A stretch of 64,000 bases of DNA from Bacteroidota bacterium (GTDB lineage Bacteria; Bacteroidota; Bacteroidia; UBA8524): contig WBUH01000019.1 of the NCBI GenBank assembly GCA_008933805.1, positions 1 through 64,000 on the forward strand, in the 5' to 3' direction. A program made the position numbers and the translations under genes. Under the pieces are notes generated by a model that was not told the DNA's origin, searched no databases, and was given only the letters and a program-made list of their open reading frames with translations. Positions 8,661 through 40,836 of the stretch are shown here, one piece after another; the first letter of the stretch is position 1, and every line of letters begins with the position of its first letter.

Positions 8661-8695
8661 AAACAGCGTGTTGAATATTTTTCAACACGCTGTTT
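8661..8695 (+). terminator. Perfect 15-bp hairpin, terminator-like
   Basis: AAACAGCGTGTTGAA pairs fully with TTCAACACGCTGTTT around a five-base loop; an A run precedes it and TTTTTGGG follows. It lies 160 bases after the recombinase gene. Part of the right arm and tail (TCAACACG..GTTTTTGG) resembles 31,768-31,785. Confidence 0.6.
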
Positions 8696-8747
8696 TTGGG
8701 ATTGTTATAACTAATTGGTTAACAATAAACTCAAATAAAACATCTGC

Positions 8748-8761
8748 AACAACGTGTTGTT
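8748..8761. repeat. Island palindrome copy 2 (AACAAC-GT-GTTGTT)
   Basis: Same palindrome in the opposite orientation to copy 1, 42 bases before the likely start of the next gene: an operator-like position. Confidence 0.8.
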
Positions 8762-8802
8762 TTTCTATACCCTGTCTTATGTTTCTTTTGAGCCGGGATA
8801 AG

Positions 8803-9291
8803 ATGAAAAGGACGCACATTTACAAAAACCATTTAAGAGCAGTACAACGGAAAATCTATCCTGACATCCTGCCTGAAAAACAACAAAAAGCGGAACGACC
8901 TAAACAAGTGGTTGAAAAATTAGAGATAGCACCATTTAAAGATACCAAACCGTTTGAGTTTACTTTACGCCGTCGGGTAATTGCTTTAATAAATATGTTA
9001 GGGGCGTTAGGGGTGGATTTTTCACGAACTGACCTCACTCAAACAGCAAGGTTTATTCATGTGATACTTGACAAGGAAATACCTACTGATAGAGCAGGAA
9101 ATGTTAAAATGGACAACTCACCGATATACAAGATGGCTAAAACCTTGCACAGGGTGTCCATGTTTAGACTGAAAACCGACCTGCTTTCGGTGAAAAATCT
9201 GTTCCAACAGTTCCCTACATTGCACGAAAAAACACCAATGCAGGAATTGATTAAACAACTGGAAATCAAAGCCAAAGAAAGCCCTAAATAA
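8803..9291 (+). CDS. Unknown island backbone protein
   Basis: I do not recognise this protein of about 162 residues. It is strongly basic at the N-terminus (MKRTHIYKNHLRAVQRKIY) and mostly helical in appearance, without signal peptide or membrane segment, which suggests a nucleic-acid-binding or structural role. The ATG at 8803 is preferred because GGGA lies just upstream; an in-frame ATG at 8779 is possible. The island palindrome at 8748 sits just upstream and may control it. Position between recombinase and excisionase-like gene fits the element backbone. Confidence 0.6.
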   Translation: MKRTHIYKNHLRAVQRKIYPDILPEKQQKAERPKQVVEKLEIAPFKDTKPFEFTLRRRVIALINMLGALGVDFSRTDLTQTARFIHVILDKEIPTDRAGNVKMDNSPIYKMAKTLHRVSMFRLKTDLLSVKNLFQQFPTLHEKTPMQELIKQLEIKAKESPK

Positions 9292-9466
9292 CTTATGGGG
9301 TGGGTAACGGGGTAGTCCGACGTGATGGGGTGGGTAAGGGCTTACCTACCCCACGCACCCACCCCACGAAAAAGACCAAAAATTGGGTGCAAAATATGGG
9401 GAGGATTGGATGCCCACCCCATGCACTTTTTCTTCTCAGATTTGCTGCACTTACTCGAAACACACA

Positions 9467-9769
9467 ATGGTAGCAAACCCATTCAACGAACTTTCAGAAA
9501 AATTAGATGCCCTTACCCAACTGGTAGCAGAAATGAACCGCAAGATGCAGGGGCAGACTTTTCAAATTGACAAGCCTTTTACTGTGCAAGAGGCCGCCAC
9601 CTATTTATGCCTTTCAAAAAGCAGGTTGTACCATTTAACCTCAAAACGGGCACTTCCGTTTTTCAAGCGCGGGCAAGCTACCCTATTTCGTAAAGAGGAC
9701 TTGGACAAGTGGCTGCAATCCAACCGTCAAAAATCAGCTGACGAAATCAGGCAAGAAGCTAAAAGTTAA
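9467..9769 (+). CDS. Excisionase-family helix-turn-helix protein
   Basis: The 100-residue protein has an N-terminal helical stretch (FNELSEKLDALTQLVAEMN) followed by an HTH_17/MerR-like DNA-binding domain: FTVQEAATYLCLSKSRLYHLTS, then FFKRGQATLFRKEDLDKWL. This is the standard fold of Bacteroidota mobile-element excisionases and small regulators. The start at ATG 9467 (MVANPF) is preferred over an upstream in-frame ATG at 9383, whose extra 28 residues are Cys-rich and unlike the family. It probably directs the recombinase toward excision or regulates backbone genes. Confidence 0.82.
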   Translation: MVANPFNELSEKLDALTQLVAEMNRKMQGQTFQIDKPFTVQEAATYLCLSKSRLYHLTSKRALPFFKRGQATLFRKEDLDKWLQSNRQKSADEIRQEAKS

Positions 9770-9798
9770 AAGGGATAACCATTTAACCATCCGTTTGT

Positions 9799-9978
9799 AT
9801 GGACTCTTACAAGCCCCAAACCCAATCCTGCACAGGGTGCAAAATGCCTTTGCAATCTGAACCTACCCTCGCTTTGGGTGCTTTTTCAGTAAAGACGGGC
9901 ATTTTACGTTGCAATCGTTGCAACCGTGTTTTGGCAGTATCCCTTTCACACCCTCAAAATCCCAAACAAAACGTATAA
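9799..9978 (+). CDS. Small zinc-ribbon protein (59 residues)
   Basis: A frame starting at ATG 9799 (MDSYKPQTQSCTGCKMPL) and ending at TAA 9976 encodes 59 residues. It has two CxxC pairs, CTGC at about 11-14 and CNRC at about 39-42, spaced as in treble-clef or zinc-ribbon folds. It ends two bases before the ATG of the next gene, so the two are probably translationally coupled, which supports it being real. Function is unknown; small ribbons of this type bind DNA, RNA or protein partners. Confidence 0.6.
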   Translation: MDSYKPQTQSCTGCKMPLQSEPTLALGAFSVKTGILRCNRCNRVLAVSLSHPQNPKQNV

Positions 9979-9980
9979 CA

Positions 9981-10286
9981 ATGGCAAAGAAAACCACAAC
10001 GCCTGCCCCCGCTATTTCGATAGAGTTGGTAAAGGAGCAGGTAAAAACAACCCTCACCCCAAAGGATGCTCAGGGCAACCCCGCCCCCGACAGAAACCTA
10101 ACGGATAGTCGACGTACATGGCTGACCGTTAATGAAATCACCGATGTGTTAAAAATTAAAGCACCCGAAGGTGGTATTACCAAAGCTCTGGTAGTAAAAA
10201 GCGTTACAGAACTGGTACAGGAAGGGATAATCAAACAGCGGTTGCGCAAGCCTCCGCACATTAGCGAATATACTTCCGCCCATTAA
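9981..10286 (+). CDS. Small winged-helix-like island protein
   Basis: The 101-residue protein starts at ATG 9981, immediately after the zinc-ribbon gene. Residues 40-95 (WLTVNEITDVLKIKAPEGG, then ALVVKSVTELVQEGIIKQR) look like a winged helix: two helices, a recognition helix and a basic wing. The N-terminus is Thr/Pro-rich and basic. It may be a DNA-binding regulator of the element; I do not recognise the family. Confidence 0.6.
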   Translation: MAKKTTTPAPAISIELVKEQVKTTLTPKDAQGNPAPDRNLTDSRRTWLTVNEITDVLKIKAPEGGITKALVVKSVTELVQEGIIKQRLRKPPHISEYTSAH

Positions 10287-16952: not shown

Positions 16953-18044
16953 ATGTTTCCCTATAAATTAAAAACAAATGATATTTTTATATCATACGTT
17001 GTAGAAGACCGCGAAATTGTGGAAGAACTCTACGCACAACTTATTAAGCGGGGATATAGAGTATGGTACGCAAATAGGGAGTTGTATATCGGGGCTAATA
17101 TAAGAGCCAAAATAAACACTGGTTTAAAAACAGCCCGTTACGGACTTGTTTTAATAAGTCCTCACTATAAAAGCCACTGGTCGCAGGGCGAGTTGTTTTC
17201 CTTAATGGAAAACAGCCAGCGTGTATTGCCTATCCTGCACAATACTACCATTGAAGAAGTAGCTTTAGAAATTCCGGGTATATACGACATCTTTTGCCTT
17301 AACACCCAAATGGGGATTGAGCAAGTTGTAGAGCGTATTTGCAAACGAGTTGCCCACAAACCTTATTTTTATTATCGATTCATTGACTTTATGAGCTTTG
17401 TAAAAAAGAAAAAGCAAAAAGTCATATCAGTAACCCTGGTAATCTTACTGCTATTTTTTTCAATTGCTTATTTGTTTTATTACCATTCATTACGCCCTAC
17501 GAGTGAGTTTATTTCAAGGGCACTTGAGGAGCGGAAAAAAAACATTGAAACGTTTGCAAATAGACAGTTTGAAGATGAGTTATCCGAGAGTGTAATGCAA
17601 GTAAGTACTTTATCAGATATTAACCGATTGGAAAAATCGCCGTTGAAAAGTCGCTATATGTTTTCTAATGGTGTGGAAGATATCAGCTCATTGGCGAGCC
17701 TAAAAAACAATGGAATACTTCCAAGTGTATCGCCGATTGCCCCTCCATACGGAATCAGTGAGTATAAGGCGTACATTTTTAAAAACGATGAAATTATAAA
17801 ATACGGACTGGTAAGTTTATTGCCCTGCAGTTGTGATGTTATAGATGAACGCCTTGTTGAAAAGGGAATCTTTGAGTTAGATATAAAATGTGAGAATTTT
17901 TTGCGCTATGCAGAGGTAAGTCTGCACACAGATGCTGCCACACAATCCAGTTTGAGGATAGTAAATTTATTTGGGGTTAAACCATACGAAACTATGGTAT
18001 TTGAGGAAATTGATGGTGCTTGGAGACTCATTCAGATACGATAG
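16953..18044 (+). CDS. Membrane-anchored TIR-domain protein
   Basis: Residues 8-135 form a TIR domain: DIFISYVVEDREIVEEL (beta-A and helix), RGYRVWYANRELYIGANI, RYGLVLISPHY, and the putative catalytic E80 in HWSQGELFSL, the position of the NADase glutamate in active TIR domains. A basic run (KKKKQK) and one membrane segment (157-178) follow, then a 185-residue C-terminal part without recognised motifs, predicted outside the membrane. TIR faces the cytoplasm under the positive-inside rule. Known bacterial TIR proteins cleave NAD in defence; the present fusion is not one I can name. Activity is inference. Confidence 0.85.
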   Translation: MFPYKLKTNDIFISYVVEDREIVEELYAQLIKRGYRVWYANRELYIGANIRAKINTGLKTARYGLVLISPHYKSHWSQGELFSLMENSQRVLPILHNTTIEEVALEIPGIYDIFCLNTQMGIEQVVERICKRVAHKPYFYYRFIDFMSFVKKKKQKVISVTLVILLLFFSIAYLFYYHSLRPTSEFISRALEERKKNIETFANRQFEDELSESVMQVSTLSDINRLEKSPLKSRYMFSNGVEDISSLASLKNNGILPSVSPIAPPYGISEYKAYIFKNDEIIKYGLVSLLPCSCDVIDERLVEKGIFELDIKCENFLRYAEVSLHTDAATQSSLRIVNLFGVKPYETMVFEEIDGAWRLIQIR

Positions 18045-20007: not shown

Positions 20008-20445
20008 ATGAAAGAAAAATTAAAAGCGTATTTACTGGTTTCGCTGTGCTTTGTGGCATTTTCAATGGTAATGTTTGCCCTTTATTATTCGAAAGGGCTG
20101 ACTAATAAAGAATCGTTAAATAGAGATATACTGCGTGGAGAATTAACGGCTGCAGAAAGCACCTTCCCATACGTACTAACCCAAAACAAGGTAGAAGCAC
20201 AAGATACACCCAAACGTGACTCATCTTCTAAACCAGTAACTAAGGAGCTTCCGGCACAAAAAGACACCGTTAAAAAGGCAAAGGAAAAAGAAATCACGGT
20301 GTATTTCTGCAACAGTACTAGTGCTTATGCTTACCATGCAAACAGTTATTGCCAAGGCCTTAGGAACTGCAAAGCTGAAATTAACGCTGTTACCAAAACC
20401 CATGCTGAAAACTTTGGCCGCCGGCCTTGTAAGAAGTGTTATTGA
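20008..20445 (+). CDS. Membrane-anchored protein with His/Cys metal-type motif
   Basis: This 145-residue protein has one N-terminal membrane anchor (residues 7-28), a charged linker rich in Lys/Asp/Pro (about 60-93), and a C-terminal domain VYFCNSTSAYAYH....C.GL...GRRPCKKCY. The order Y-H, C, L, PCKKC matches the lipoprotein at 18,605, so the same fold occurs twice in this run with different anchors. It ends one base before the DUF6119 gene start, implying coupled translation. Confidence 0.65.
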   Translation: MKEKLKAYLLVSLCFVAFSMVMFALYYSKGLTNKESLNRDILRGELTAAESTFPYVLTQNKVEAQDTPKRDSSSKPVTKELPAQKDTVKKAKEKEITVYFCNSTSAYAYHANSYCQGLRNCKAEINAVTKTHAENFGRRPCKKCY

Positions 20446-20446
20446 T

Positions 20447-22213
20447 ATGGAAGAAACTGAAAAAATGCCGATTACTCTTTATCGGCTAAACGATGAGGCA
20501 TTCAACTTTAAAGAGTTTGATAAAATGGTTGATTGGGTTATGGACGCTGATAGAGAACAGAACAAGCAACTTGTAGGATTCAAAGAACAAGAAGTGAGAA
20601 CCTTTGATGGTTTTTATTTAAGGCTATTTTATTCCCAAAAGACTAGAAAACCTGTTTGGAGAGACTTTCTTACCGGGGTTGCATTACCATCATCCAAAAT
20701 CATTAATGCAAGTAATGAAGACGCTTCATTTATAGCATTTATTGGCTATAATAATAACTTATTTGCAATTTCAGGTGGACAGGGGAATTTTATAATCCAA
20801 CCGTATATTGACCAAAATTTTGGCTTGGATATAATATGCAGGATACTCCCTCAAAATCATAATGCAATAAAATCAATTCAAGATGTCGGTGTTTTTGGGT
20901 CTATTTTAGGAACTGAAAAATTCTTCAGGGGAGATTATAGACTGGATGATGAGGAGCAGTTTGGGAAAGTTTATAAATCAGTCATATCAGGCATTGACAA
21001 ACAAATAATAATTGATGAATTTGGATTCCCCAGTTCAGAACTGAAAAGAAATCCTAGAATATTAGCTAAATCTTCTTTCCAAATATCAAGGAGCATTGAT
21101 TTTGATAATTTGTTAGAAATTATTAAAAGAACTGACAGTATACTTGCCCGAAACCCTAATTTCATTTTAAACAAAATTACCCATATAAATAGACGTGGAA
21201 TTGTCAATAAGCAACTCATTGAAACTTTAAATATTGAACTCATACAGTATCTTTTTGAGTTTTTCACTGGTAATGGAGATGATGCAATAAATATATGCCA
21301 TCGAAATATATCAAAATATTTAAATGCAATATGTTATGAGGTTAAAGCTCACAGGAAACACATATGTTCCTTAGAAACCATCGATAATATTATTCACCTA
21401 GCAAATAATAGTGATTTCGTAATAAATATAAACTTGAATTCAGTTGATGAGTTTAGGGAATCAATTGAAAAAATTTCGATTTTGAGTTTTGATGAAGAGG
21501 GCAACCAGCTAACAAAAGCGTATCTCTTAGAGCACTGCCATGGAGAACTCACCTATAACAATACCGTCTATTTTTTTCTAGATGGAGAATGGTACAGGAT
21601 TGAAGATGAGTTCATAGATGGACTAAACGAAGAAATGAGTAATTTAATTGCAGAAAATCTTGATAACAGTATTTTAACAGATGTTTTCGATTTATCAGTT
21701 GACGAAAAAGATTTCAATCAACAATACCTTAATGACAATAGTGTTTTTGTGTTAGATAAAGTAATTGCTGACGGGATTGAGATTTGCGACTTACTTAAAA
21801 CTACAAGCAATCAGTTATACATTATCCATGTAAAGAAAGGATTCAATAATAGTATCAGGGAGTTGACATCTCAGGTGGCTCTTTCGGCAAATACACTGCT
21901 TTGGGACACAAAAAAACGATACCCTCATGTTAAAAAGCTAGATAGTATGCTGAATTCTTCCAAAACAGGTTACTTGTCAACTATTTATAATCAAGCTAAG
22001 CCTTCTCAAACTTTACTTGAAATCTTTAATAAAAAGAAATTTGCTGATATTACTTTTTGTTTAGCATTTGTAGATACTGCTACATCGGATAGAGACATTA
22101 AGGATATTAGAGCCTTTCATTCAAATATTGCAAAGTTTTCAATTATAGAGCTTAGAAGGAAAATCAAAGGCTTAGGTTTCAATTTCAAGCTAATTCAACT
22201 AAAAAGACCTTAA
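20447..22213 (+). CDS. DUF6119 (TIGR04141-type) sporadically distributed protein
   Basis: The 588-residue protein starts at ATG 20,447 (MEETEKMPITLYRLND). Recognisable family features are LPQNHNAIKSIQDVG with a following FRGDYRLDDEEQFGK, FFLDGEWYRIEDEFI near 375-390, and a C-terminal EICDLLKTTSNQLYIIHVKKG ... ELTSQVALSANTLL block near 445-485, arranged here in pieces. That block is like a PD-(D/E)xK-type nuclease core, but the usual ExK is replaced by HVKK, so catalysis is uncertain. The family has patchy distribution and turns up in islands with conflict genes. Start overlaps the end of the preceding frame region only by adjacency. The gene is visibly AT-rich compared with the core. Confidence 0.72.
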   Translation: MEETEKMPITLYRLNDEAFNFKEFDKMVDWVMDADREQNKQLVGFKEQEVRTFDGFYLRLFYSQKTRKPVWRDFLTGVALPSSKIINASNEDASFIAFIGYNNNLFAISGGQGNFIIQPYIDQNFGLDIICRILPQNHNAIKSIQDVGVFGSILGTEKFFRGDYRLDDEEQFGKVYKSVISGIDKQIIIDEFGFPSSELKRNPRILAKSSFQISRSIDFDNLLEIIKRTDSILARNPNFILNKITHINRRGIVNKQLIETLNIELIQYLFEFFTGNGDDAINICHRNISKYLNAICYEVKAHRKHICSLETIDNIIHLANNSDFVININLNSVDEFRESIEKISILSFDEEGNQLTKAYLLEHCHGELTYNNTVYFFLDGEWYRIEDEFIDGLNEEMSNLIAENLDNSILTDVFDLSVDEKDFNQQYLNDNSVFVLDKVIADGIEICDLLKTTSNQLYIIHVKKGFNNSIRELTSQVALSANTLLWDTKKRYPHVKKLDSMLNSSKTGYLSTIYNQAKPSQTLLEIFNKKKFADITFCLAFVDTATSDRDIKDIRAFHSNIAKFSIIELRRKIKGLGFNFKLIQLKRP

Positions 22214-22299: not shown

Positions 22300-22506
22300 A
22301 TGGCTAGATATTATGTAAACAAGAACGCTCAAAACAACGGCGATCATGAGGTTCATAGATCAGGATGTTCTTACATGCCTGATACAGAAAACCGACTTTA
22401 TCTTGGTGATTTTGATAATTGCAAAGACGCAATAAAGGAAGCTAAAAAAACATATCCCAAGTCAAATGGCTGTTACTATTGCTGTAACGAGTGCCACATA
22501 ACATAA
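22300..22506 (+). CDS. Small His/Cys-rich protein
   Basis: This 68-residue protein (MARYYVNKNAQNNGDHEVH, RSGC, then GCYYCCNECH) belongs to a small conserved family that I recall from many bacteria, with an N-terminal YYVN.NAQ..GDHEVH.. motif, NRLYLGDF and a C-terminal C..CC..C cluster likely to bind zinc. It has no signal peptide. It is the last gene before a terminator and is the third His/Cys small protein in this run. Confidence 0.72.
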   Translation: MARYYVNKNAQNNGDHEVHRSGCSYMPDTENRLYLGDFDNCKDAIKEAKKTYPKSNGCYYCCNECHIT

Positions 22507-22569
22507 GACACTAAAGAAACTTAAGCATACGCTATCTCGCGCTCTGAGTAGTTGGTGTTTAGTAGTTAA

Positions 22570-22602
22570 CCCTCCAATAGCAATATTGGGGGGTATTTTT
22601 TT
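22570..22602 (+). terminator. Terminator dividing the cargo into two units
   Basis: CCCTCCAATA pairs with TATTGGGGGG (one G-U) around a four-base loop, followed by TATTTTTTT. It ends the run that starts at the TIR gene and precedes the six-gene operon. Confidence 0.8.
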
Positions 22603-22712: not shown

Positions 22713-23963
22713 ATGCACAAAGCTATACTATACAAGGCATTGCTTGCGGCCCTATTGATGTTTGGCCTCAATTCATGTAAAAATGAAGCCCCGAAAAAAA
22801 CGGAGGTTGTTATACCAAAGGGAATATCAGCCATAAAAGTATTCCTGGATAATTCTGAAAGTAACATCGGTTATATGCGCGGGGCAACCAAGTTTAAGGC
22901 AATCATCACCAACTTCACAGCAGAAATTAATAACCCCAAACTGGCTGCGCATAGTCACTTTAACCTGATTGCAGATTCAATTTCACCACTCAACTATTCT
23001 CCTGAACAGTTTATTGATGCAGTTGCCAATAGCAAAATTGAGCCTGCCAAGTGCTCAGAAATGCACAAGATGGTAGAAATGCTTACCACAAACCTCGATT
23101 CGTTTGACATTGGCATATTGGTTTCTGATTGCATTCTTTCGTATTGTGATACAAAAGGCAACCCTAATAAAAACAGAGACAATGCCGAAAGTGAGCAAAA
23201 AACCTACGTAAAGTCAATATTCAAAAAACTAAACACCAAAGGAGTTTGCGCCTCAGTGTACGCCTTTAAATCTGATTTCAATGGTCGGTACTTTACATAC
23301 AATAACAAAATACAGTATTACAAAAACGAGGTACGCCCCTTTTATGTGTGGGCAATTGGGCGCAAAGAACAGCTAATGCTTTTTAATGCCGAGTTATTGA
23401 AAACCACACGCCCCGATGCTCAGCTCCATTTTGGTTTTGATACAGAGCCCAAAGCGAGTTTTGCCTTGTTCTTCAAAACAGGTAAAAAAGGAACGTGTGA
23501 AATTAACAAAGACAATATCAGCGATATAGTTGTTAAGGCAGATAAGCCGGTAGGTTTTGTAATGGGAATTAATTTGGATAGCCTCCCACCTTACGCCCAA
23601 ACGATAGAGTACGTGAAGAAAAATCTTAGCATCGGTTTTGAGTACTTGAAGCTGAAAGATGTAAAGCTGAGAAAAGATTTTGAACTGCTACAAACAAATA
23701 ACCGCGAAAAGTTATTTAGAGAAAACAATACCCATTTTCTATACTTCGAAATAGAAGATTTAATCACCGATACCCCTGTTGAGATAACATTGGATAACAA
23801 AACCGACACTTGGTATGAAGACTGGTCGACAATGGACGACCTGACTACTGAAAATAATAACGAGAAAACGTTTGCATTAATTCACCTTATCAACGGCGTA
23901 AAAGAGGCCTACGAGGTAAAACACACCTCTTTCTTAAAAGTAAAACTTACCCTTAAACAATAA
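22713..23963 (+). CDS. VWA-like lipoprotein, first gene of six-gene operon
   Basis: The 416-residue protein has a lipoprotein signal (MFGLNSC, lipid on C22), so it is anchored in the envelope. Residues 38-230 look like a von Willebrand A-type fold: strand IKVFLDNSESNIGYM gives a DxSxS metal-site motif at 46-50, IGILVSDCILSY supplies the later strand-Asp, and GVCASVYAFKSDF a third strand. Residues 240-416 form a separate beta-rich part. It could bind a partner through a metal site outside the cytoplasm. The next gene starts 12 bases after its stop. It is not a family I can name. Confidence 0.68.
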   Translation: MHKAILYKALLAALLMFGLNSCKNEAPKKTEVVIPKGISAIKVFLDNSESNIGYMRGATKFKAIITNFTAEINNPKLAAHSHFNLIADSISPLNYSPEQFIDAVANSKIEPAKCSEMHKMVEMLTTNLDSFDIGILVSDCILSYCDTKGNPNKNRDNAESEQKTYVKSIFKKLNTKGVCASVYAFKSDFNGRYFTYNNKIQYYKNEVRPFYVWAIGRKEQLMLFNAELLKTTRPDAQLHFGFDTEPKASFALFFKTGKKGTCEINKDNISDIVVKADKPVGFVMGINLDSLPPYAQTIEYVKKNLSIGFEYLKLKDVKLRKDFELLQTNNREKLFRENNTHFLYFEIEDLITDTPVEITLDNKTDTWYEDWSTMDDLTTENNNEKTFALIHLINGVKEAYEVKHTSFLKVKLTLKQ

Positions 23964-23975
23964 CTTTTAACGCGT

Positions 23976-24362
23976 ATGCTATTATCAATTTTTACAAGTC
24001 TCTATCAGGCTTTAATCGGAAAAAACGACGACCCTATTTATGAGGATGAAGTGTTTTTTTCTGTAGGATTGTTTACAATAATTATTGCCTTAGCAGTGGG
24101 CATCTTGTTTTATCTGGGCATTGGCCGCTGGAAGGCTATTTTTTGCCACCTCAAACATTGGATAGTTAGTTTATTGATAGTTTTGGTTGTAACAGGGCTA
24201 TTGGCATTGCAGCAAGCTAAATCAGCCACACAGGCTGAGGTTTTTGATGCCTACATGGTAAGGTTTGCAATGTTCAATGCCCTGTTTGCAATTATTTGGT
24301 TTTTTCTATTCTCATTGCTACTAAAACGATTTTCAATTTTTTCAAAACACACACCTTTTTAA
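23976..24362 (+). CDS. Three-helix membrane protein
   Basis: The 128-residue protein has three hydrophobic segments (about 26-46, 56-75 and 96-116), no enzymatic motif, and a short acidic N-terminal stretch (GKNDDPIYEDEVFF). It is tightly packed in the operon (12 bases from the previous gene, 23 to the next) and could link the external lipoprotein to the cytoplasmic GTPase. Function unknown. Confidence 0.65.
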   Translation: MLLSIFTSLYQALIGKNDDPIYEDEVFFSVGLFTIIIALAVGILFYLGIGRWKAIFCHLKHWIVSLLIVLVVTGLLALQQAKSATQAEVFDAYMVRFAMFNALFAIIWFFLFSLLLKRFSIFSKHTPF

Positions 24363-24385
24363 TCATCATTACTAACTAATACACT

Positions 24386-25876
24386 ATGGCTATTAATACA
24401 TTTGTTTTTGGTATCGGTGGTACCGGAGCGCGTATTGTGCGTTCACTCACCATGCTGTTGGCATCAGGTGTCAAATTGGAAAACACCAATAAAATTATTC
24501 CCATTATTATTGATGTAGATGCTAAAAATGCAGACACCAGCCGCACATTAAAAGCACTTACTACTTATAAACACATTAGAGAAAAGGGATATGGTAGCAG
24601 TGAGGAGATTAAAGAAGGTTTCTTTAATGCCGACCTCAATACCCTTAGTTCCTTGATGCCCGAAACAAATACAAGAGAGCGGCTGGACGATTCTTTTCAA
24701 CTACAGTTTGACAACCTTGAAACTACCTTTTTGCGATACATTGACCCTAATGAAGAGTTGGTGAATGATGTTACAATGGATTTTTTGGAGGCGTTGTATG
24801 ACAATACCCCTCCGGATCATCCAAATTACAGCCATACGGAACTTAATCTTAGGCTTGATTTGGGCTTTAAAGGCAATCCCAATATTGGCTGTGTAGTATT
24901 TAACAACCTTGCCAACACCAAAGAGTTTCAGTTTGTATTAAAAAGCATTGGCGAGCAGGATAGGATTTTTATTGTGAGCTCCATATTTGGCGGTACAGGT
25001 TCTTCCGGCTTCCCCCAATTGGTGCGCCTGCTTCAGGCCGAAGACCGCATAAAAAACAATGTATTTGGAGCACTCACCATCATGCCCTACTTTAATGTAA
25101 CCGATAATAAAAAAAGTGCTATAAACTCGGACAGGTTTAATTCTAAAACCGAAGCTGCACTAACTTATTATTCTCGCTACTTAAGAGGAAAGATAAACTG
25201 CTTTTACCAGTTGTGGGACAAACCACTTAAGCAATACGAAAACAAAGAAGGGGGTATTGAGCAACAAAACAACGCTCACTTGGTAGAAATGCTGGGAGCC
25301 ACTGCCATTGTTGATTTCGTAAACAAATCACACGAATCGTTTAAGCCAAAGGAACGGACAGAGTACTTCGATTTTGGCATAAAAGCCGGAGACCATATAG
25401 ACATACGCAATTTTTACGATAGAACCAGAGAAACTGTATTGCAACCGTTGACTTTGTTTTCGTATGCAATGAAGGTATACCTTGAAAAAATACCTGAGTT
25501 TAAATCGGAAGCTTTTTTTAAGGAATTGGAGTTGGGAAGTAGGCTCAATGGCGATGCATTTTTCCAAAATCTCACTTGGTTTTTCAACCATTATAAACAA
25601 TGGTTGAAGGAGATGGCGGATAACGAACGAAAGTTCCAGCCGTTTAACTTAGACCTTGACTTAAACTCAATGATAAGAGGAAAACAAATAGAGACCTCAA
25701 TCATTAATAGGGGAATCTCAGAAGCTTATCTCAAAAACAATCTTGGAAAGATTGAAAACGAACTGAAGAAGAACATCCCTGATGGAGAAAAAGCACGAAG
25801 GTTCTTAAAGCTCATGAACGCAATTGCTGATGCCTGTTTTGATAAAGTAAAACCACTGCCTACGATGGCACACTAA
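24386..25876 (+). CDS. Tubulin/FtsZ-superfamily GTPase-like protein
   Basis: The 496-residue protein has the two glycine loops that define the tubulin/FtsZ fold: FVFGIGGTGARIVRSL at 6-21 (T1 loop) and IFGGTGSSGFPQ at 200-211 (T4 signature, compare GGGTGSG). The strand IIPIIIDVDAKNADT near 37-51 fits the following beta-strand and T2/T3 area. It matches the general appearance of the Tubulin_2 (PF13809) group. I could not find a clear T7 NxDxxD/E catalytic loop, so GTP binding is better supported than polymer-driven hydrolysis. The C-terminal 200 residues are helical and unassigned. The next gene begins 12 bases downstream. Confidence 0.78.
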   Translation: MAINTFVFGIGGTGARIVRSLTMLLASGVKLENTNKIIPIIIDVDAKNADTSRTLKALTTYKHIREKGYGSSEEIKEGFFNADLNTLSSLMPETNTRERLDDSFQLQFDNLETTFLRYIDPNEELVNDVTMDFLEALYDNTPPDHPNYSHTELNLRLDLGFKGNPNIGCVVFNNLANTKEFQFVLKSIGEQDRIFIVSSIFGGTGSSGFPQLVRLLQAEDRIKNNVFGALTIMPYFNVTDNKKSAINSDRFNSKTEAALTYYSRYLRGKINCFYQLWDKPLKQYENKEGGIEQQNNAHLVEMLGATAIVDFVNKSHESFKPKERTEYFDFGIKAGDHIDIRNFYDRTRETVLQPLTLFSYAMKVYLEKIPEFKSEAFFKELELGSRLNGDAFFQNLTWFFNHYKQWLKEMADNERKFQPFNLDLDLNSMIRGKQIETSIINRGISEAYLKNNLGKIENELKKNIPDGEKARRFLKLMNAIADACFDKVKPLPTMAH

Positions 25877-25888
25877 TCAATAACCACC

Positions 25889-28800
25889 ATGACAACGCAC
25901 GTATTTAGAAAATATAACGGGTATAACCCCAACGAAATAAAATGCTGGACACCCAGCACTGTAATTGACGAAACCAGTTTTGATGTTGAGGATATTGTTT
26001 TTACCAGAGGGGCAGCAAAAGCAGGAACCTCCATCCCGTCACCACTGGCGCGTATGGAGTTGTTTGATACCGCATTTAGAATTGTTGCCGATGACCGCAA
26101 GGATAACCTAAAAGGTAAAACCATCTATCATCAATTGGTATCAGATATGCTCGATGTGATGCAACTGTTATTTAACATACACGACGAAGAAATAGGACGC
26201 GGGAAAAAAATATGGTTTAAAGAATGGCGAGTACGCGAAAATATAGAGAACCTAAAATCCAAGGGGGAAAGCCATCCCAATTATCTGCTGGCAAAATCGT
26301 TAGAGCAAATATTTTTCGATGATAAATTTTCAGGCACTGATAGCATCTTCCTAATCTATTATGAGCAGAAACTGTTAGGCGCTACATCGCCCCTCACTAT
26401 GTTTTTTACCTCGCCCAACTGGGCACGTTATATTTCCGACGGTGTTATTGCCAATGTGCCAAAAAGTATGGACGGTGATGTGTTTTTTGATAACGATTAC
26501 AGGGCACTGCACGAAAGGGATAAAGAGTTTGTAAAATACATATACAAGCTGCTGCTACAATATCCTACGGCATTTAACAAAGCTGAGGGACTAAGAGCAT
26601 ATATCAACAAAACCATTACTACCCACTTTCCTTCGTGGCGAAACGAATTCGGAGTCCAAAGAGGATCAGAAGAAGGGCAAACCACCATGGGTAATTTATT
26701 AGACGGTGATTATGAAAAAATACGAACCAATGCAGACAACAAGCTGCTTACCGTTAATGGCATTTACTTTTATCACCAAAAGCAAGAGGATATTAGAGAA
26801 CGGATAAAAAACAACAGTGATTTTATAATTAGTGCAACCGTTGAAAAATATGCTACGGAAGAATTTGGAGGCAATAGCTATAAAATTTACCCGCCGCTGG
26901 TATTGGTAGATAATATGAATGTTCAGGGGGATTATATGGACAGGAACTCTCCTTGGAACTCAAATAACAGGGTGAAAGAGTTTTATCACAAAAACATTCC
27001 ACTGTTTGAAAGAAGACTTCCGCTTGGCTTATCATCTACTGTTAACTATCCTTTTATAACCGTTGATGATTTTATTGAAGATGTATTGATAGAGCTACCT
27101 TACGCGATTAACTCTTCAAAATTTTTCACCGGTTTTCAAGGCGAGTTTAAATATCTGTTGCCCATCAAAAAAGAATATTTCGATTTTTTCAGGATTGAAG
27201 ATTTGAAAAGCCAACTTTCAATACATGTTGGGGAAGAACAAGTTAAAGTGAACTTAAAAATCCCAATCAGGAATAAAAAAGGAGTTGAGAATATTCTATT
27301 CACGAAAGAATACAAAAGACAAAGTGATGATATTGTACAGCTAAGAGCCGGTATCGGTATTTTTCCTTTCTATCAGATAAACGATACAGACCCTAACCTA
27401 CAAGCCCTTAATGATTACACGATATTACTGGCTGAACGTGAAGAGAATTCAAAAATAAAATCGCTTGATTTTTATAAATATGTTTTACACTCTTCGTCGG
27501 CAACAATTCCTTCAAAAACTCACCAACGCTCTACAGAAACTGATGTAAACACCAACGATTCAACTGCAACCTCCAAGTATTATATGGTTAAAGAAGCCTT
27601 TGATTACATGGAGCTTGAGTATGCTATTGGCATAAGTGATACATGTAAAGGTCTTATCATTCCTAATTTTAGTAACAGAACATTTGGTAGAAATAACCTT
27701 ACCAAGGCCTATACTTTTGCTATTGATTTCGGAACTTCTAACACGCATATTGCCTATAAGGAGAATGATGAGGCGTTGCCAAAACCTTTTGAAGTAGATG
27801 ATACCGATCAACAAATGGTATTACTTAACCAGCCTGCTTTAAGCAGTGATTTAGGATTTAAGTATAACTATCAGTTTCCTGCCATTGACTTAACATTGCG
27901 CAGAGAATTTGTTCCGCCGGTCTTCAGCTCACAAAGCAAACTAACAATTTCATTTCCATTTAAAACGGCCTCCTGTGAAGTTATAGCCTTTAGCAGTGTT
28001 GACAAATCAGAAGCCGATTTGTTTAGCCATATTAATATTGGTTATTACATTGATGCTGACGAAAGAAAAGCTACAAACATTAACTATACTACAAATCTTA
28101 AATGGTTGTTGGAAAATAATAACGACGATACCAATAAAAGCCGTGTCAAGTTTTTCTTAAAACAATTGCTATTGCAAATTAAAGCTAAAGCCATTATTAA
28201 TAACGCAAGGTTAGACCATTTAAAGGTGGTTTGGTCTGTGCCGTTGAGCATGGAGCGAGGAAATAGAGCCACCTTAAACAATACTTTGAGAGAAGCTTTT
28301 GGTGAAGTGTTTGGAAGAAGTGGAGCAGTATTAACTGCACCAATCCCAGAGTCAATCTCCCCCTATTTTTTCCTTACAAAATCAGAGGCGGATATTCAAA
28401 GTACTGCAAACGTAGTTAACATTGATATAGGCGGAGGCACAACGGATATAATGATGTTTATGGAATCATCAGGCAACCGTGAAGACAAGTATTTAACCAC
28501 TTCGTTTAAGTTTGCAGGAAGCGATTTGTGGGGCGGGGGGTATAAAAGTAAACTTAAGGACAATGGCTTTATTAAAAACTATTTAAATTATCAAAAAGCC
28601 AACAACATAAACCCTGAAGAAGTTAAGTATTTTAAGAGGGTTAAAGACGATAGCAATCTTAGTTCTGATGATTTAATTAGTCTGTTGTTTAAATACGATG
28701 ATAAATTTAAGTTCAGTGATTCAATCACCATCGGTAACCCCAATCTTTCGATAGTACTTTATCTTCATTATAGTGCAATTGTGTATCACATTGTACAGGT

Positions 28801-29470
28801 GATTGAGCTAAAAAAATATCCTTTGCCACGCTATTTATCATTTACAGGAAAAGGAAGTCAATACATAAAACTGATTTGCGGTGGTGACGAAAACGAACTG
28901 CAAGAATTTACGAAGTTGTTATTTAAGTCCTACACTAAGCAACCGCTGCCCGGAAGTTTTAAAATACACTTAAATAACAACCCAAAAGAAATAACGGCCA
29001 ATGGCTCGGTACTTTACTCATTGGAAAGTGAAGAGGAAACTAATAAATTTAAAAATATTGTTGAGTTTGTCCATCCCGGCTTCAATCCAGAAACTGATAT
29101 TGAGTTAACCCAACAACTTGTTAATCATGGAAATAATGTATTGTGCGTAGCTGATGCAGTTGAGGCAGGTAGCTCACTTAATATATCCGTATTAAACAAT
29201 CTGAATACTTTTTTAGAAAAGACCCTAACGAATAAAGAAATAGTTGATTTTTTAGCCGATTTTAAAGTTAAAACCCCCAAAGAAGTATTTGAAGACTTGA
29301 AATGGAATGGGGATGCCTTTAATGGGGAAGGCTTAGTTTACGACAGTTTTAAAAAGGTATTAAATGACCTTAAAAAGCTGGACGAAACAAACCAGTTGCC
29401 GGAGTCTCTTTTCTTTTTTGCATTGAAAGACTCATTATACCGCTTATCAAAAGAAATCGTAAAGAAATAA
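25889..29470 (+). CDS. Large protein with C-terminal actin/Hsp70-type ATPase domain
   Basis: The protein has 1193 residues. Residues 607-1080 carry the ASKHA nucleotide-binding motifs: phosphate-1 AIDFGTSNTHIAY (D613), phosphate-2 VNIDIGGGTTDIMMF (845-853) and adenosine motif LSFTGKGSQYIKLI (984-990). FAGSDLWGGGY follows phosphate-2 as in Hsp70-like and SrfB-like proteins. Residues 1-600 are a separate region with no family I can name; it includes TSIPSPLARMELFDTAF at 47-63, a motif I believe recurs in uncharacterised Bacteroidota proteins. There is no signal peptide, so it acts in the cytoplasm, next to the tubulin-like product. It could be an assembly factor, chaperone or filament; which one is not decided here. 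Confidence 0.75.
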   Translation: MTTHVFRKYNGYNPNEIKCWTPSTVIDETSFDVEDIVFTRGAAKAGTSIPSPLARMELFDTAFRIVADDRKDNLKGKTIYHQLVSDMLDVMQLLFNIHDEEIGRGKKIWFKEWRVRENIENLKSKGESHPNYLLAKSLEQIFFDDKFSGTDSIFLIYYEQKLLGATSPLTMFFTSPNWARYISDGVIANVPKSMDGDVFFDNDYRALHERDKEFVKYIYKLLLQYPTAFNKAEGLRAYINKTITTHFPSWRNEFGVQRGSEEGQTTMGNLLDGDYEKIRTNADNKLLTVNGIYFYHQKQEDIRERIKNNSDFIISATVEKYATEEFGGNSYKIYPPLVLVDNMNVQGDYMDRNSPWNSNNRVKEFYHKNIPLFERRLPLGLSSTVNYPFITVDDFIEDVLIELPYAINSSKFFTGFQGEFKYLLPIKKEYFDFFRIEDLKSQLSIHVGEEQVKVNLKIPIRNKKGVENILFTKEYKRQSDDIVQLRAGIGIFPFYQINDTDPNLQALNDYTILLAEREENSKIKSLDFYKYVLHSSSATIPSKTHQRSTETDVNTNDSTATSKYYMVKEAFDYMELEYAIGISDTCKGLIIPNFSNRTFGRNNLTKAYTFAIDFGTSNTHIAYKENDEALPKPFEVDDTDQQMVLLNQPALSSDLGFKYNYQFPAIDLTLRREFVPPVFSSQSKLTISFPFKTASCEVIAFSSVDKSEADLFSHINIGYYIDADERKATNINYTTNLKWLLENNNDDTNKSRVKFFLKQLLLQIKAKAIINNARLDHLKVVWSVPLSMERGNRATLNNTLREAFGEVFGRSGAVLTAPIPESISPYFFLTKSEADIQSTANVVNIDIGGGTTDIMMFMESSGNREDKYLTTSFKFAGSDLWGGGYKSKLKDNGFIKNYLNYQKANNINPEEVKYFKRVKDDSNLSSDDLISLLFKYDDKFKFSDSITIGNPNLSIVLYLHYSAIVYHIVQVIELKKYPLPRYLSFTGKGSQYIKLICGGDENELQEFTKLLFKSYTKQPLPGSFKIHLNNNPKEITANGSVLYSLESEEETNKFKNIVEFVHPGFNPETDIELTQQLVNHGNNVLCVADAVEAGSSLNISVLNNLNTFLEKTLTNKEIVDFLADFKVKTPKEVFEDLKWNGDAFNGEGLVYDSFKKVLNDLKKLDETNQLPESLFFFALKDSLYRLSKEIVKK

Positions 29471-29481
29471 GCTACGCTATC

Positions 29482-30651
29482 ATGAAAAGATTAATACCAC
29501 TAACTATAATACTATTAGGTGCAAACACACTGTTCAGCCAAGTTCCATCGAAACAGACTTTAGACAGTGTTCAATACCAAATAATCCGTGCGACAGTTGA
29601 TTTTTTGGCCACAGACACAAAAACATTCGGAAAAGTTAAAGGTACTTGTATAAACTGTAATGTAAATGATTATGCAGCCTTAAAAAAATATGCAGACGAT
29701 AACAAGTTGGCTAAAGTACCTGATTTGATAAATGAATGGAAAAAAATATCTCTTGATACTAGTGAAGCAGGTTGGATGGCTTCAGTAGAAAGTTTCAGAA
29801 AGAAAATTCATTATAAAATTGCTGATGGAGAAAAGAAAGAACGCCAAAAATTAATAGGTTATGAGCCCTATAACATTAAACTTGACAGCATCATAAATAG
29901 GCTTAATACCCTTACAAAATCTAAACAACCATTGGAACAAGAATCCGCAATAAGAGATGGAGATACTGATGAAATAAGTAAGGCTGAAAGCGATAATGAA
30001 GAAGATGGTATTTTATCAAGCTTGAGTGCCTGGCAAAATATTTCCCTTGCTGCGTGCATTGTAATCTCCTTATTGGTGTTGATGGTTAGTTTCCTAACCA
30101 ATAAAAAAAAGGCAGCAGCACATAACAGAAATGTTGAGAAGCTTACAAAGAAGCATAAAGATGCGATAGCTGAACTACAGAGAGAGAACAAATTATTGGA
30201 AGCTGAAAAGAAAAAAATGGACGCTACCATTACTCACTTGGAAAGCGAATTAAAAAACGAACGAGAAAAAAATTACATCAGCAAGCAGCCACAAATTGTT
30301 GATGAACAAAAGTCAGTCTCAACTCAAAAGCCTGAAAGTAGAGTAAAATACGCCAGTTATGCTGACCAGGGCGACGGTTTTTCAGTCGGAAGCCTATTAA
30401 ATCAAAGCAACAGCGAAGCAATATTTGAAATAAGTCTTACCTCTTCAAACACCGCAAGCTATAAAGTCTCAAGCGATAATGCTATTCAACGTTATGCGTT
30501 ATCAAACGCTGCATTTTTTTTAGGGACTACCTGCAAATACGATACGGAACCTAATAGCCAACAAGGCATAGTAACAGAAAAGCCTGGCGAATTGAAGTTA
30601 CAGGGCAATAAATGGATAATAACGGTTCCTGCTGTGATAAGTTTTAGATAA
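29482..30651 (+). CDS. Membrane coiled-coil protein of the operon
   Basis: The 389-residue protein has a signal peptide (cleavage after LFSQ, residue 20), an outer segment (21-185) containing a CINC pair, one membrane segment (187-206), a cytoplasmic coiled coil (214-265, KKHKDAIAELQRENKLLEA) and a C-terminal domain (about 300-389) of alternating strands. Topology puts the N-terminal region outside and the coiled coil inside. It could tether the cytoplasmic GTPase/ATPase pair to the membrane. Family unknown. It starts 11 bases after the ATPase gene. Confidence 0.7.
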   Translation: MKRLIPLTIILLGANTLFSQVPSKQTLDSVQYQIIRATVDFLATDTKTFGKVKGTCINCNVNDYAALKKYADDNKLAKVPDLINEWKKISLDTSEAGWMASVESFRKKIHYKIADGEKKERQKLIGYEPYNIKLDSIINRLNTLTKSKQPLEQESAIRDGDTDEISKAESDNEEDGILSSLSAWQNISLAACIVISLLVLMVSFLTNKKKAAAHNRNVEKLTKKHKDAIAELQRENKLLEAEKKKMDATITHLESELKNEREKNYISKQPQIVDEQKSVSTQKPESRVKYASYADQGDGFSVGSLLNQSNSEAIFEISLTSSNTASYKVSSDNAIQRYALSNAAFFLGTTCKYDTEPNSQQGIVTEKPGELKLQGNKWIITVPAVISFR

Positions 30652-30664
30652 TTGACAATTGCTA

Positions 30665-31705
30665 ATGCAAACCATCGAAAGCTTAAAGGAGCTGATTAAA
30701 GAAACGCTTCTAAAAAACAGGGGCGATTTAAAGTTAAGAGCCCACAAAGAAATTACCAATTATGCTCATCATATAGGGATTGATGGCAGGAAACTCAGTA
30801 AACTGATACAGGAGGTAGATGCCTCCATTAACTGGGAATTAATTGCTCAACAAGAAACAAATGTACCAAAGAAGAAAACAAAAGTTTCTAAAACCGCTAA
30901 TAATGATAATGTACTAACTAAAGAGCCGGAAAGCATTCCTAAGGAAAATTATGATAACGAAAAAGTTGATGCTGGAGAGCTAGTGAAAAACAGGAAAAAA
31001 ATACCCCTTACGAAAATATACATTGCCGTTTGTTGTGTTTTTTTTGTTTTTGTAGTGTTACAAACCACAAGAAGATCGGCCCCTTCAAGAGGTATTACAA
31101 TGTTTTCATGTGCGGAGGTATTAAACCTTAGAGAATCTGAAGATACCATTAGCCCTGATAATATTATTGGAAACATTTTCTATGCCGATTCTGTCGAAGT
31201 AGTGTCTATAAATAGCGGAGTAGCATATTGTAAAGTAGGTGACCTTAAAGGTTATTTATCTGCAAATTACCTGCTCACCAAGGAAGACTTTTACCTTCTA
31301 GACGGAATATTTGCTAATAAAACAGCTCGATTGCTTGTGAAGTCCACAAGGGAAAAAAAAGCACTGCTAAGTTATTACAAATCAAATGGATTAATGAGTA
31401 AATTGAGAGATGAGTATGATAGTGGTATGGCTGAAAGTAATATATGGCAATTGTTTGCTGCCCCATCAACTAAGTATTACAATACAGTTATGTATGTTAA
31501 CGGGTTAAATAACACATCATTGTTACCAGGCTTCGCTTGTATCATTACAAACACTAGTACCAATGAGCGTAGGTTTCTTTTATTTAGCTTCAATATAAAT
31601 GAGGATCCGCAACTTTTATATGAAGAGTCTGCACCTCAAAGAGGAAACATCAAAACCGTTCAGGAACTTCAAACAGGAGTTTATAAAATCAGATATTCAA
31701 GGTAA
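30665..31705 (+). CDS. Membrane protein with SH3-like domain, last gene of operon
   Basis: From ATG 30,665 (MQTIESLKELIKETLLKN) the protein has 346 residues. Residues 1-60 are a helical cytoplasmic module (LRAHKEITNYAHHIGIDGRKLSKLI), then a Lys/Asp-rich linker, a membrane segment (about 116-134), an SH3b-like beta domain (about 143-205: FSCAEVLNLRESEDT ... GVAYCKVGDLKGYLSANYL) and a C-terminal 140-residue region. The SH3b part is outside the cytoplasm and may bind peptidoglycan or another protein. It is the last gene of the compact operon; the following 37 bases have only a weak short inverted repeat. Confidence 0.7.
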   Translation: MQTIESLKELIKETLLKNRGDLKLRAHKEITNYAHHIGIDGRKLSKLIQEVDASINWELIAQQETNVPKKKTKVSKTANNDNVLTKEPESIPKENYDNEKVDAGELVKNRKKIPLTKIYIAVCCVFFVFVVLQTTRRSAPSRGITMFSCAEVLNLRESEDTISPDNIIGNIFYADSVEVVSINSGVAYCKVGDLKGYLSANYLLTKEDFYLLDGIFANKTARLLVKSTREKKALLSYYKSNGLMSKLRDEYDSGMAESNIWQLFAAPSTKYYNTVMYVNGLNNTSLLPGFACIITNTSTNERRFLLFSFNINEDPQLLYEESAPQRGNIKTVQELQTGVYKIRYSR

Positions 31706-34449: not shown

Positions 34450-37400
34450 ATGACCAGATTTTTATCGTGGGTGGGAGTAGTGTGCCTACTGCTCACCACG
34501 GGCTTGCTGCGCGCGCAAACCGAGAGTTGCGCCAGCGAATGGCTTCAAACCCACTACACCAACCAAGACACAGGCTTTTACCTGATGAAAAAAGCCATTG
34601 GTAACCGTGTTCAGCACTTCCGCCAACACAAAAACGATATCAATACAGGGTTTAACCCCGGTAGCGGTAGCGGTAACAACCTTTCGGCAGGCTGCAATCT
34701 TGCCCGCTTTATTATCCCTGTTGTGGTGCATATTGATACTACGGATAATGCAGCCAACATTACCGATGCACAAGTACAACATCAAATAGACATCCTGAAT
34801 ACCGCATTTAGCGGTACCGAAATACAGTTTTGTTTGGCCAAAAAACGACCCAACGGTACTTCATTTAACGGTATCAACCGTATAGCAGGCAACAATACAA
34901 GTAATAGGCTAACCTTGCAAATAGGCCGCCTTGCCCAACTGGCCTACTATAACCCCGTCCAATACCTTAATATTTATGTGGTAAAAGACATACTTACTGA
35001 TGCTGGGGCATCTACAGGGTATGCAGGGTATAATGCCATCTACCCCGGCCAAAACGGTACTGACGGGGTAGTGGTACGCTACAATTATTTTGGCAATGCA
35101 CAAACCTGCACCACAGGCTGCAATACGCTGGTCTCTTATTCAAGGGGGTTCACATTGGTACACGAAGTAGGCCATTATTTGGGGTTACTTCACACTTTTG
35201 AGGGCGGATGCAATGGCGGAAATACCGCTGCCACTTGTGGTTCACAGGGGGATAATTGCTGCGATACCCGCCCCCAACCGCAGCTAAACAACTGTCCTAC
35301 CGTCAACCACACCAATTCGTGCCCCACCTACCACCTGAGCATTGACGAAAATTTGGAGAACTACATGAGTTACGCCAAAGATACCTGCCAAAATAATTTT
35401 ACCGCCAACCAAATAGAGGTAATGCACAGTACGCTGGAAGGGCCGCGCAGTTACTTAGGCAGCCCCCTAAACGTAAATACCAAAGAACTGAGCTGCTGCA
35501 TGGGCAGCGCATTTTTTACGGCCAGCAACAACTTATTGTGTTTGACAGAAGTGGTTACCTTTACTGCCTACCAATACACAGGCAGCACTAAGTACCGTTG
35601 GATAATAGCCGATAGTACTGGCAGTGTGGTAAAAGACACCACCCTTACCAACAACCACATATATAGTTATACGTTTAGCCAAAATAACCGATATACGGTT
35701 ACCCTGAAAGTAATATTCGGCAGTAATAACGATACCATCACCTTTGGTCGCACGGGGTTTATTGAGAAAAAAAATTGTGGCACTCCTTTGCAAAGCATAC
35801 ACGCCAACTGGTATTTCGGAAATTTTGCGGGACTAAATTTTACTACTGCTGGTGCAATTAGGGATTTAAATCCAAAGTTTAGAGACCCTATAAACGTCAA
35901 CACACAAGAAGGTACTTATGGAATCAGCAACCCGTATGGCCGTTTGTTGTTTTATGCTGCCGCAAGGCCAAATTTCGACTCTTTATTTAATTATCAACCC
36001 CAAGTAGATGTATATAACCGAAATTATGCAAGAGTCTCCAACGGGCCTTTACACGGTTTCGGGGATGCTTCACAAGGCGGTGTAATAGTTCCTATGCCGG
36101 GCAATAAAAGCAAATACTATATCTTTACCGTATCTGAATTAACAGGTTTTCATTATTCAATTTATGACACCACAGTAAACTCAGGGTTAGGGAACATTGA
36201 TACCAACTATAGAAATGTTCCTGTTCCGGCTCCGAGCGGCTCTGTAAACATATATTTCAAAGGGGACAGCACTCATAGTGTTGGGGAAATTATTACCGCT
36301 ATTCCCAAATGTAACGGTAAAGATTATTGGGTGATTGTAGGCGATGTTTCTGTCCTGACTTATACACCAAAATTCCCAAATTATTCGAAGTTGGTGGTGT
36401 ATTCTTTAGACAGTTTAGGACTTTCGTTTCATAGTGTCTTACCCTATACCGTTGAAACAAGAGGTGGCTTAAAAGCCTCTCCTGACGGTACAAGACTTGC
36501 AGTACCTCCCTATATATTTGATTTTGATAAATCAAATGCTACGGTCAAAATTCACAGTAAAATACCTGCAACAACTATGGGTGCAGGTGCCCTTTGGAGC
36601 GGGTCTTTTAGTCCAAACAGCAACGTATATTATCATCTTCAAAGAATAAATGACAATGTATCTAAGTTAGTGCAGGTGGATTTGTTAAACCCTGACACCT
36701 TAACTGCGTCAAAAGAAATTTTAACGTATTACAACCCCTATTACATGGCCTTGCAACTCGCACCTGACAATAAAATCTACGTAAGCCGTTTAGGGGTAGG
36801 TCAATTGACGGTCATAAATAATCCTGATGAAGTGGTAACCAGCGCAGAACCTAACAAATGCGGGTTTACCGATAACGGTCCTATGTTGTCGGTAGGAGGT
36901 TTAGGCGGCGAATGTTCAGAAGGATTACCCAACAACGTAGATGCAAAACTACCCTCAGAAATCCCATTGGATTTCGTACGCATAGACAGCACTTGTTTTA
37001 ACGTCCGCTTCCGTCCCAACGAATGTTGTGCAACCTCTTATAAGTGGCACTTTGGCGATGGCGACAGCTCATCATTGCGTGAGCCTAATCACACATACGG
37101 AGATACAGGCTTATATACCGTTTCCCTCAAAATCAACGGCACACAAACCGTACAAAAAGACATTTTTATAGGTATCCGTTCCAAAATACAGGATGAGGAC
37201 ACCGCCTGCGTACTTGACAGCAGTATTGTTAACTATACCATAACTCACTACGATGATAAAAATACCTATTCGTGGAGTGTAATAAATGGCGCATCTATGG
37301 TTGGCTACAATAATACTCTTGCGGTAAACTGGTATGCAAACACAGGTAAAGTTGTTCTGAATATGAGTAACTTCTACAATACTTGTACTGCTACAGATAC

Positions 37401-40681: not shown

Positions 40682-40836
40682 CAAGATAAAAAACACAAAT
40701 TTTAATATTATGTAATAATTTGATTACAAGCATTTTAATTGTAAATTTTAAAACAACAAACGAACTTGTTTCAGAATCTCACTCTGTGTTAACCTTGAAT
40801 GGGTAATGCGATGCCGACCTTCGTCGGCAATAAAAA

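Follow-up and report, generated by a model that had tools for sequence, protein, structure and literature searches.

The FtsZ-FtsA pair of cell division is the main known case of tubulin-family and actin-family proteins acting jointly at a membrane, and FtsA has been described as the actin-like membrane tether of FtsZ (PMC5508204). The FtsZl1 family, which we read as the Pfam family Tubulin_2, was reported in operons that hold genes for vWA proteins, P-loop GTPases, protein kinases and OmpA and for which membrane remodelling was proposed; in the majority of its members a long coiled coil follows the FtsZ domain, and the type protein has about 1050 residues (PMC2875224). The DO-GTPase/GAP1-N2 systems of Kaur et al. 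(2020) contain either a tubulin with a vWA protein or HSP70 with GrpE: the tubulin accompanies vWA and membrane proteins in 52% of GAP1-N2 neighbourhoods, in a theme restricted to Firmicutes and Actinobacteria, and HSP70 belongs to a separate theme found in 14% (PMC7159879). In the Zorya system, defence depends on ion flow, on the binding of peptidoglycan and on the tail of ZorA (PMC11890865). Here we describe a six-gene operon that encodes a tubulin-family protein and, directly after it, a large ASKHA ATPase, both surrounded by genes for membrane partners. The operon lies in positions 1-64,000 of the forward strand of contig WBUH01000019.1 (assembly GCA_008933805.1, Bacteroidota bacterium, GTDB UBA8524), a stretch of 64,000 nucleotides that we call the window.

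The operon occupies positions 22713-31705 and comprises six intact open reading frames, g1 to g6, all on the plus strand. A first-pass annotation, made from the letters of the window, had described six tightly packed genes behind a terminator, and this layout is borne out: the successive gaps are 12, 23, 12, 11 and 7 nucleotides (the last becomes 13 if g6 starts at an in-frame ATG 6 nucleotides past its TTG), and a strong terminator-like hairpin, consisting of an 11-bp stem and then a T run, is found on the plus strand at 22569-22594, between the block that holds a DUF6119 gene and the operon. Overall, 14 terminator-like sites were found, compared with 7.3 (standard deviation 2.8) in shuffled sequences. 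At the centre of the operon are the tubulin-family gene g3 (24386-25876) and the ATPase gene g4 (25889-29470), whose products have no transmembrane segments by hydropathy. They are preceded by g2 (23976-24362), which encodes a polytopic membrane protein of 128 residues; the three helices ascribed to it agree with the approximately three transmembrane segments seen by hydropathy, and the gene is kept beside the tubulin.

This pairing of tubulin and ASKHA genes is conserved well outside the window. Scanning genome contigs with g3 yielded 11 loci, in Chitinophaga and Dyadobacter. All of them keep genes g1 to g5 in order and have a sixth gene with the N-terminal module of g6. Furthermore, a phylum search found the tubulin in 12 of 395 genomes, and a class search found the ASKHA protein in 20 of 395, with the tubulin adjoining in 19 of the 20. 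The 11 close loci and those of the phylum and class searches, together with one Prevotella record and one plasmid of Gloeothece, make up 36 other loci, and in 34 of these, from Bacteroidota and the one cyanobacterial plasmid, the ASKHA gene comes immediately after the tubulin gene. The annotation of the Gloeothece plasmid names only the tubulin, its operon neighbours being listed as 'hypothetical protein'. The core order is lipoprotein, transmembrane protein, tubulin, ASKHA protein (about 1150-1300 residues in the family) and transmembrane/coiled-coil protein, and its recurrence in the other loci examined shows that the arrangement is not a product of chance. The pairwise identities of the tubulins and of the ASKHA proteins are also tightly correlated (r = 0.98; Mantel test, 0 of 2000 permutations as high). 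Collectively, these results show two cytoskeletal-type nucleotide-switch families encoded side by side with membrane partners, as the first-pass annotation had supposed, and conserved as a unit in many genomes. The tubulin-ASKHA operon is thus a real, largely undescribed membrane-linked machine, and it provides a second tubulin/actin-type pair, one that has diverged widely and resides in mobile DNA.

The tubulin/FtsZ-like identity of g3 (496 residues) is supported by matches above cut-off to both Pfam Tubulin_2 (E value = 4e-10, 39.9 bits, cut-off 27) and Pfam Tubulin (E value = 3e-8, 34.7 bits, cut-off 33); in a single-stretch genome search the Tubulin_2 score was 25.3 bits, under the cut-off. 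The protein carries the motifs GGTGxR, FGGTGSSGFP and GGxxQxNxxH, and across 16 homologues with identities down to 20% the GGTG of the first nucleotide loop, the FGGTG of the signature loop and the family motif GxxxQxNxxHxxE are all kept. An AlphaFold2 model built with 12 close homologues is weak (predicted local distance difference test (pLDDT) 49, predicted template modelling score (pTM) 0.54), and nearly all of the 50 best PDB matches that Foldseek returned for it are FtsZ or tubulin. An assignment of g3 as the FtsZ orthologue was rejected, with 14.1 bits against a cut-off of 295.2 for TIGR00065; the ordinary FtsZ of the same genome is encoded on another contig (C16).

The main new element of the operon is g4, which belongs to an ASKHA family without a Pfam name. 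Its 1193 residues divide into an N-terminal region of about 600 residues and a predicted C-terminal ATPase domain of the FtsA/MreB/Hsp70 type (approximately 608-1193), and the presence of this ASKHA domain is strongly supported by sequence. Searching for DxGT (phosphate-1), DxGGGTxD (phosphate-2) and GxGS (adenosine), in this order, found all three in g4, as DFGTSNT, DIGGGTTD and GxG, and across 16 aligned proteins that share 16-61% identity with g4 of the window, the positions without variation include D613 and G615 (phosphate-1), K738, W739, D846, G848, G849 and D853 (the last four in phosphate-2), and G987 and G989 (adenosine). No Pfam family matches g4 above its cut-off, and several weak matches under cut-off (EutA, SrfB, MutL) fall on the same phosphate-2 motif. 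SrfB (PF07520) was rejected as an identification, its match at that motif scoring 11.6 bits with a cut-off of 27.1; a search for SrfB in 148 Bacteroidota genomes found none, and no control genome matched either. Compared with the PDB, the g4 profile matched MreB (5e-4), an actin-family protein, Hsp70s and FtsA, which agrees with the ASKHA fold first proposed for g4. In the 395 genomes of the class, the profile found strong family members in 20, and the next matches after the family itself were mostly open reading frames about as long as FtsA or MreB, which it matched over the phosphate-2 region; the two that we read were an FtsA between FtsQ and FtsZ and an MreB beside an MreC-like gene.

These profile matches also bear on a chaperone-like device, one of the options in the first-pass annotation, in which the ASKHA protein would work as an Hsp70 on a tubulin-like scaffold. 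The ASKHA superfamily does include Hsp70, the g4 profile does reach Hsp70 structures, and HSP70 occurs in one theme of the DO-GTPase systems (PMC7159879); however, g4 has no match to the Pfam HSP70 family (PF00012), profile-profile alignment of the g4 family by hhalign ranks FtsA (95%) and MreB (93%) above DnaK (86%), and the operon has no gene recognisable as DnaJ or GrpE. A chaperone is accordingly improbable.

Outside the g3-g4 pair, the operon encodes putative envelope proteins. The product of g1 (22713-23963) has the NSC lipobox of a lipoprotein, with Cys22 nearly invariant among 17 homologues. The additional call as VWA-like stands less firmly. It is based on a [DE]xSxS plus D pattern, with DNSES as a motif resembling the metal-ion-dependent adhesion site (MIDAS), and S48 and D139 are invariant in the 17 homologues; however, VWA models match none of these 17 family members, a PDB profile search with g1 gave no VWA support, and an hhalign comparison with a bona fide VWA protein was weak and confined to the first strand and the MIDAS region. 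The product of g5 (29482-30651) is a membrane coiled-coil protein as had been described, with a signal peptide, a periplasmic part, a transmembrane helix at residues 181-209, a coiled-coil region and a conserved C-terminal domain of beta type that recurs across sister loci. The last gene, g6 (30659-31705), encodes a helical N-terminal module of about 65 residues, common to the window and 12 other loci (the 11 close loci and L030), followed by a transmembrane helix at residues 114-138 and a possibly SH3-like C-terminal region. For this protein, too, the membrane assignment holds and the fold assignment is weak: Pfam gives no support for SH3 in the window protein, and SH3_3 was matched, below threshold, in the one homologue from L030.

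Beyond g5 the sister operons differ, and the distal slot is filled by SH3 or WG proteins (WG repeats in L029 and L036), by a ZorA/ZorB-like motor pair, by TerD or by OmpA. MotA-like together with MotB-like proteins are encoded in ten loci (L031-L033, L035, L037 and L098-L102). PADLOC models of ZorB matched in the three sister operons tested (best E values 4.8e-14 to 7.4e-8), and those of ZorA matched the MotA-like protein of L031 (2.6e-5). In L101, the ZorA/MotA-like protein (positions 8015-10117 of the reverse-complemented locus) is fused at its end to the C-terminal domain of g5 (residues 616-698). This natural fusion suggests a common docking partner for g5 and the motor tail, and we infer that this partner is the tubulin/ASKHA core. 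In the deepest branch we found TerD genes in L039, L103 and L105 (Pfam TerD, 1e-70 in L039) and OmpA in L038 (6e-17). The envelope-spanning character that the first-pass annotation gave to the machine fits these sister operons with a MotA/MotB (ZorA/ZorB-like) pair or OmpA. Furthermore, the link to ZorA and ZorB, together with the fusion of motor tail and g5 domain, offers a concrete way into the question of how signals from ion-driven envelope motors could reach filaments in the cytoplasm. A separate observation concerns five deep-branch loci (L038, L039, L103, L105 and L107), which have an unannotated protein of 426-561 residues after the ASKHA gene and which also hold TerD, OmpA or a gene that by eye appears to encode a protein kinase.

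The window operon resides in a mobile element, beside TIR and DUF6119 genes, as had been noted. This element (7091-40781, about 33.7 kb) has a direct repeat, GAACTTGTTTCAGAA[GT]CTCA, at its two ends (7091 and 40762), which gives the left attachment (att)-like repeat GAACTTGTTTCAGAAGCTCA (7091-7110, plus strand) and the right one GAACTTGTTTCAGAATCTCA (40762-40781, plus strand), and it encodes a tyrosine integrase (7264-8499, plus strand; Phage_integrase 1e-17, SAM_5 and Arm-DNA-bind_5). Since the core matches a repeat with seven near-copies in the genome, the att site is plausible, not proven; an empty insertion site was not shown, the left and right chromosomal flanks being on different contigs in relatives. 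Near each end of the element there is also an inner repeat of the TGTTGTACCTATGTTGTACC type (at 7210 and 40662), possibly an arm site. The TIR-domain protein is encoded at 16953-18044 on the plus strand (TIR_2 4.5e-18). Directly upstream of the operon, at 20411-22213 on the same strand, is the gene for the DUF6119/TIGR04141 'sporadically distributed' protein, a separate transcription unit that is not kept beside the 11 close sister operons. Other features of the element include a small Cys/His-rich open reading frame (HRSGCSYMP...GCYYCCNECH) at about 22300-22507, which resembles the end of a 145-residue protein encoded at 20008-20445, the two being possibly a pair of zinc-binding mini-proteins; six palindromes like CAACAACRYGTTGTTG (8541, 8747, 10963, 12193, 31741 and 32042), located just past the integrase region and just past the six-gene operon and possibly a regulator binding site or a terminator-like repeat; and, as cargo at 34450-39564, a secreted M43-type metallopeptidase of 1704 residues with PKD domains and a Por secretion tail.

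The distribution of the operon points the same way as the element. Four further genomes were sampled from the family of the host, and all lack g4; in a tree of the ASKHA proteins the window sequence groups with sequences from Chitinophagaceae and Spirosomataceae. Host family f57 appears in three separate places of this tree and host family f2 in two, and their presence in separate clades indicates horizontal transfer. Cytoskeletal families in a mobile element, with one relative on a cyanobacterial plasmid, could in principle form a TubZ/ParM-like cassette for the segregation or maintenance of the element. Yet the lipoprotein and transmembrane partners are conserved, the operon contains no gene for a DNA-binding adaptor, and only 2 of 72,556 plasmid records gave a hit, a 1.77-Mb replicon among them, whereas 50,697 phages gave none, which makes a segregation role very improbable.

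Anti-phage defence, one form of the defence role that the first-pass annotation had raised, would have the envelope module sense phage adsorption or DNA entry and the tubulin/ASKHA pair, as switch or effector, confine the invader or kill the cell. Such a role is consistent with the TIR gene in the same integrase element, with the patchy and horizontally spread distribution, with TerD partners in sister loci and with the ZorA/ZorB-like partners in ten of them, ZorAB being thought to sense in a similar manner; moreover, tubulin plus vWA operons were placed among predicted defence systems in the conflict-system study of 2020 (PMC7159879). On the other hand, PADLOC models match none of the six proteins, the operon has no known effector nuclease, and around the sister loci housekeeping genes prevail, with restriction genes scattered among them. 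We therefore regard a dedicated defence device as plausible on circumstantial grounds and, on balance, not the expected outcome. Partly the same genes can be read as a machine for membrane remodelling or for vesicles and transport, in which tubulin polymers would deform or organise the membrane in housekeeping-like stress or export roles. Makarova and Koonin proposed remodelling for the FtsZl1 operons in 2010 (PMC2875224), the same tubulin family occurs here with membrane proteins, OmpA is present in sister loci, and the TerD genes of three sister loci point to stress; however, we found no remodelling activity of any member in the open-licence literature, and the patchy distribution speaks against a housekeeping role, leaving remodelling a somewhat unlikely alternative.

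We tentatively favour, with a confidence that falls a little short of even, an accessory, horizontally transferred and envelope-anchored FtsZ-FtsA-like machine that answers envelope damage or invasion, that is, stress or phage. The core of this machine would be g3, strictly paired with the large FtsA/MreB-type ATPase g4, and by analogy with FtsZ and FtsA the two may co-assemble under the inner membrane under the control of GTP and ATP. The assembly would be tethered to the membrane by g2 and g5, either as anchors or as transducers, while g1 and g6 would read the periplasm, and the periplasmic part, transmembrane helix, coiled coil and C-terminal domain of g5 could relay the state of the periplasm; this direction of signalling is, like the sensing, one that we infer. 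The distal slot would be interchangeable, with an SH3-like protein here and a ZorA/ZorB-like motor, WG, OmpA or TerD elsewhere, and the purpose would most likely be a response to envelope damage or invasion.

Several observations weigh against this FtsZ-FtsA-like machine. The catalytic T7 loop of FtsZ (NxDxxD) was not identified by eye in g3, which leaves GTP turnover by this protein uncertain; for FtsZl1, Makarova and Koonin likewise reported that the T6-H7 elements are not confidently identifiable (PMC2875224). The AlphaFold2 model of g4, built with 12 close homologues, is poor (pLDDT 44) and gave no useful Foldseek match, so that the ASKHA fold call is based on motifs and on profile matches over short stretches. 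Two loci depart from the pairing: L097 has the ASKHA gene and g5 and no tubulin, and L037 (genome G390) has VWA-like, interrupted tubulin and MotA/MotB-like genes and no ASKHA, this being either a decayed locus or a different subtype, in a genome with 13% contamination. Finally, the flanks of the sister loci show no consistent theme of defence or stress. A more far-reaching form of the proposal is a mobile tubulin-actin-type co-cytoskeleton, in which the paired tubulin and giant FtsA-like ATPase are tethered to the membrane and served by envelope sensors that can be exchanged, one of them an ion-driven motor like that of Zorya, in an envelope-triggered defence or stress response; we consider this possible and rather doubtful. 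Either way, the 'membrane remodelling' prediction made in 2010 for Tubulin_2 operons acquires a defined, testable core.

The first-pass annotation had matched the operon to no named system. This holds only in part, since the tubulin belongs to the Tubulin_2/FtsZl1 family with operons described in 2010. The main text of that study (PMC2875224) mentions no tubulin partner of actin or Hsp70 type. The window operon shares with the FtsZl1 operons a Tubulin_2-type relative of FtsZ, uncharacterised membrane proteins, perhaps a vWA protein (here a weak call) and a broad, patchy distribution. It differs in its short tubulin, strictly paired with the ASKHA ATPase. OmpA-type partners are here confined to sister loci (L038 and the ZorB-like proteins), with no OmpA-family protein in the window operon, whose six proteins also include no significant match to a P-loop GTPase, a gene frequent and not universal in FtsZl1 operons, and no kinase. 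In the DO-GTPase/GAP1 systems a tubulin likewise occurs with membrane proteins, and with vWA proteins, to which g1 is tentatively likened; there, however, tubulin and HSP70 are alternative themes, whereas here tubulin and ASKHA occur together, and no DO-GTPase or GAP1 match was found in the six proteins or their close neighbours, with libraries that were not checked for GAP1 models.

Compared with the FtsZ-FtsA pair of the divisome, the operon again combines a tubulin homologue with an actin-family ATPase, presumably acting together at the membrane, and among named proteins the closest relatives that we found for g4 are FtsA and MreB. However, g3 and g4 are not the orthologues of FtsZ and FtsA: g4 has about 600 additional N-terminal residues, and the genome has a separate FtsZ. 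The likeness to Zorya lies in the ten sister operons with a long-tailed MotA-like and a MotB-type protein, those tested matching ZorB models; in contrast, the window operon lacks the motor pair, no ZorC, ZorD or ZorE match was found, and tubulin and ASKHA take the place of the effector. SrfB is similar in being a large protein with a weak match at phosphate-2, at a score far under the cut-off. Taken together, the tubulin family is shared with described systems and its union with an ASKHA ATPase is new in the open-licence literature, with a description elsewhere being possible. Without DO-GTPase and GAP1, and with its tubulin united with an ASKHA partner, the g3-g4 operon is set apart from the DO-GTPase/GAP1-N2 systems.

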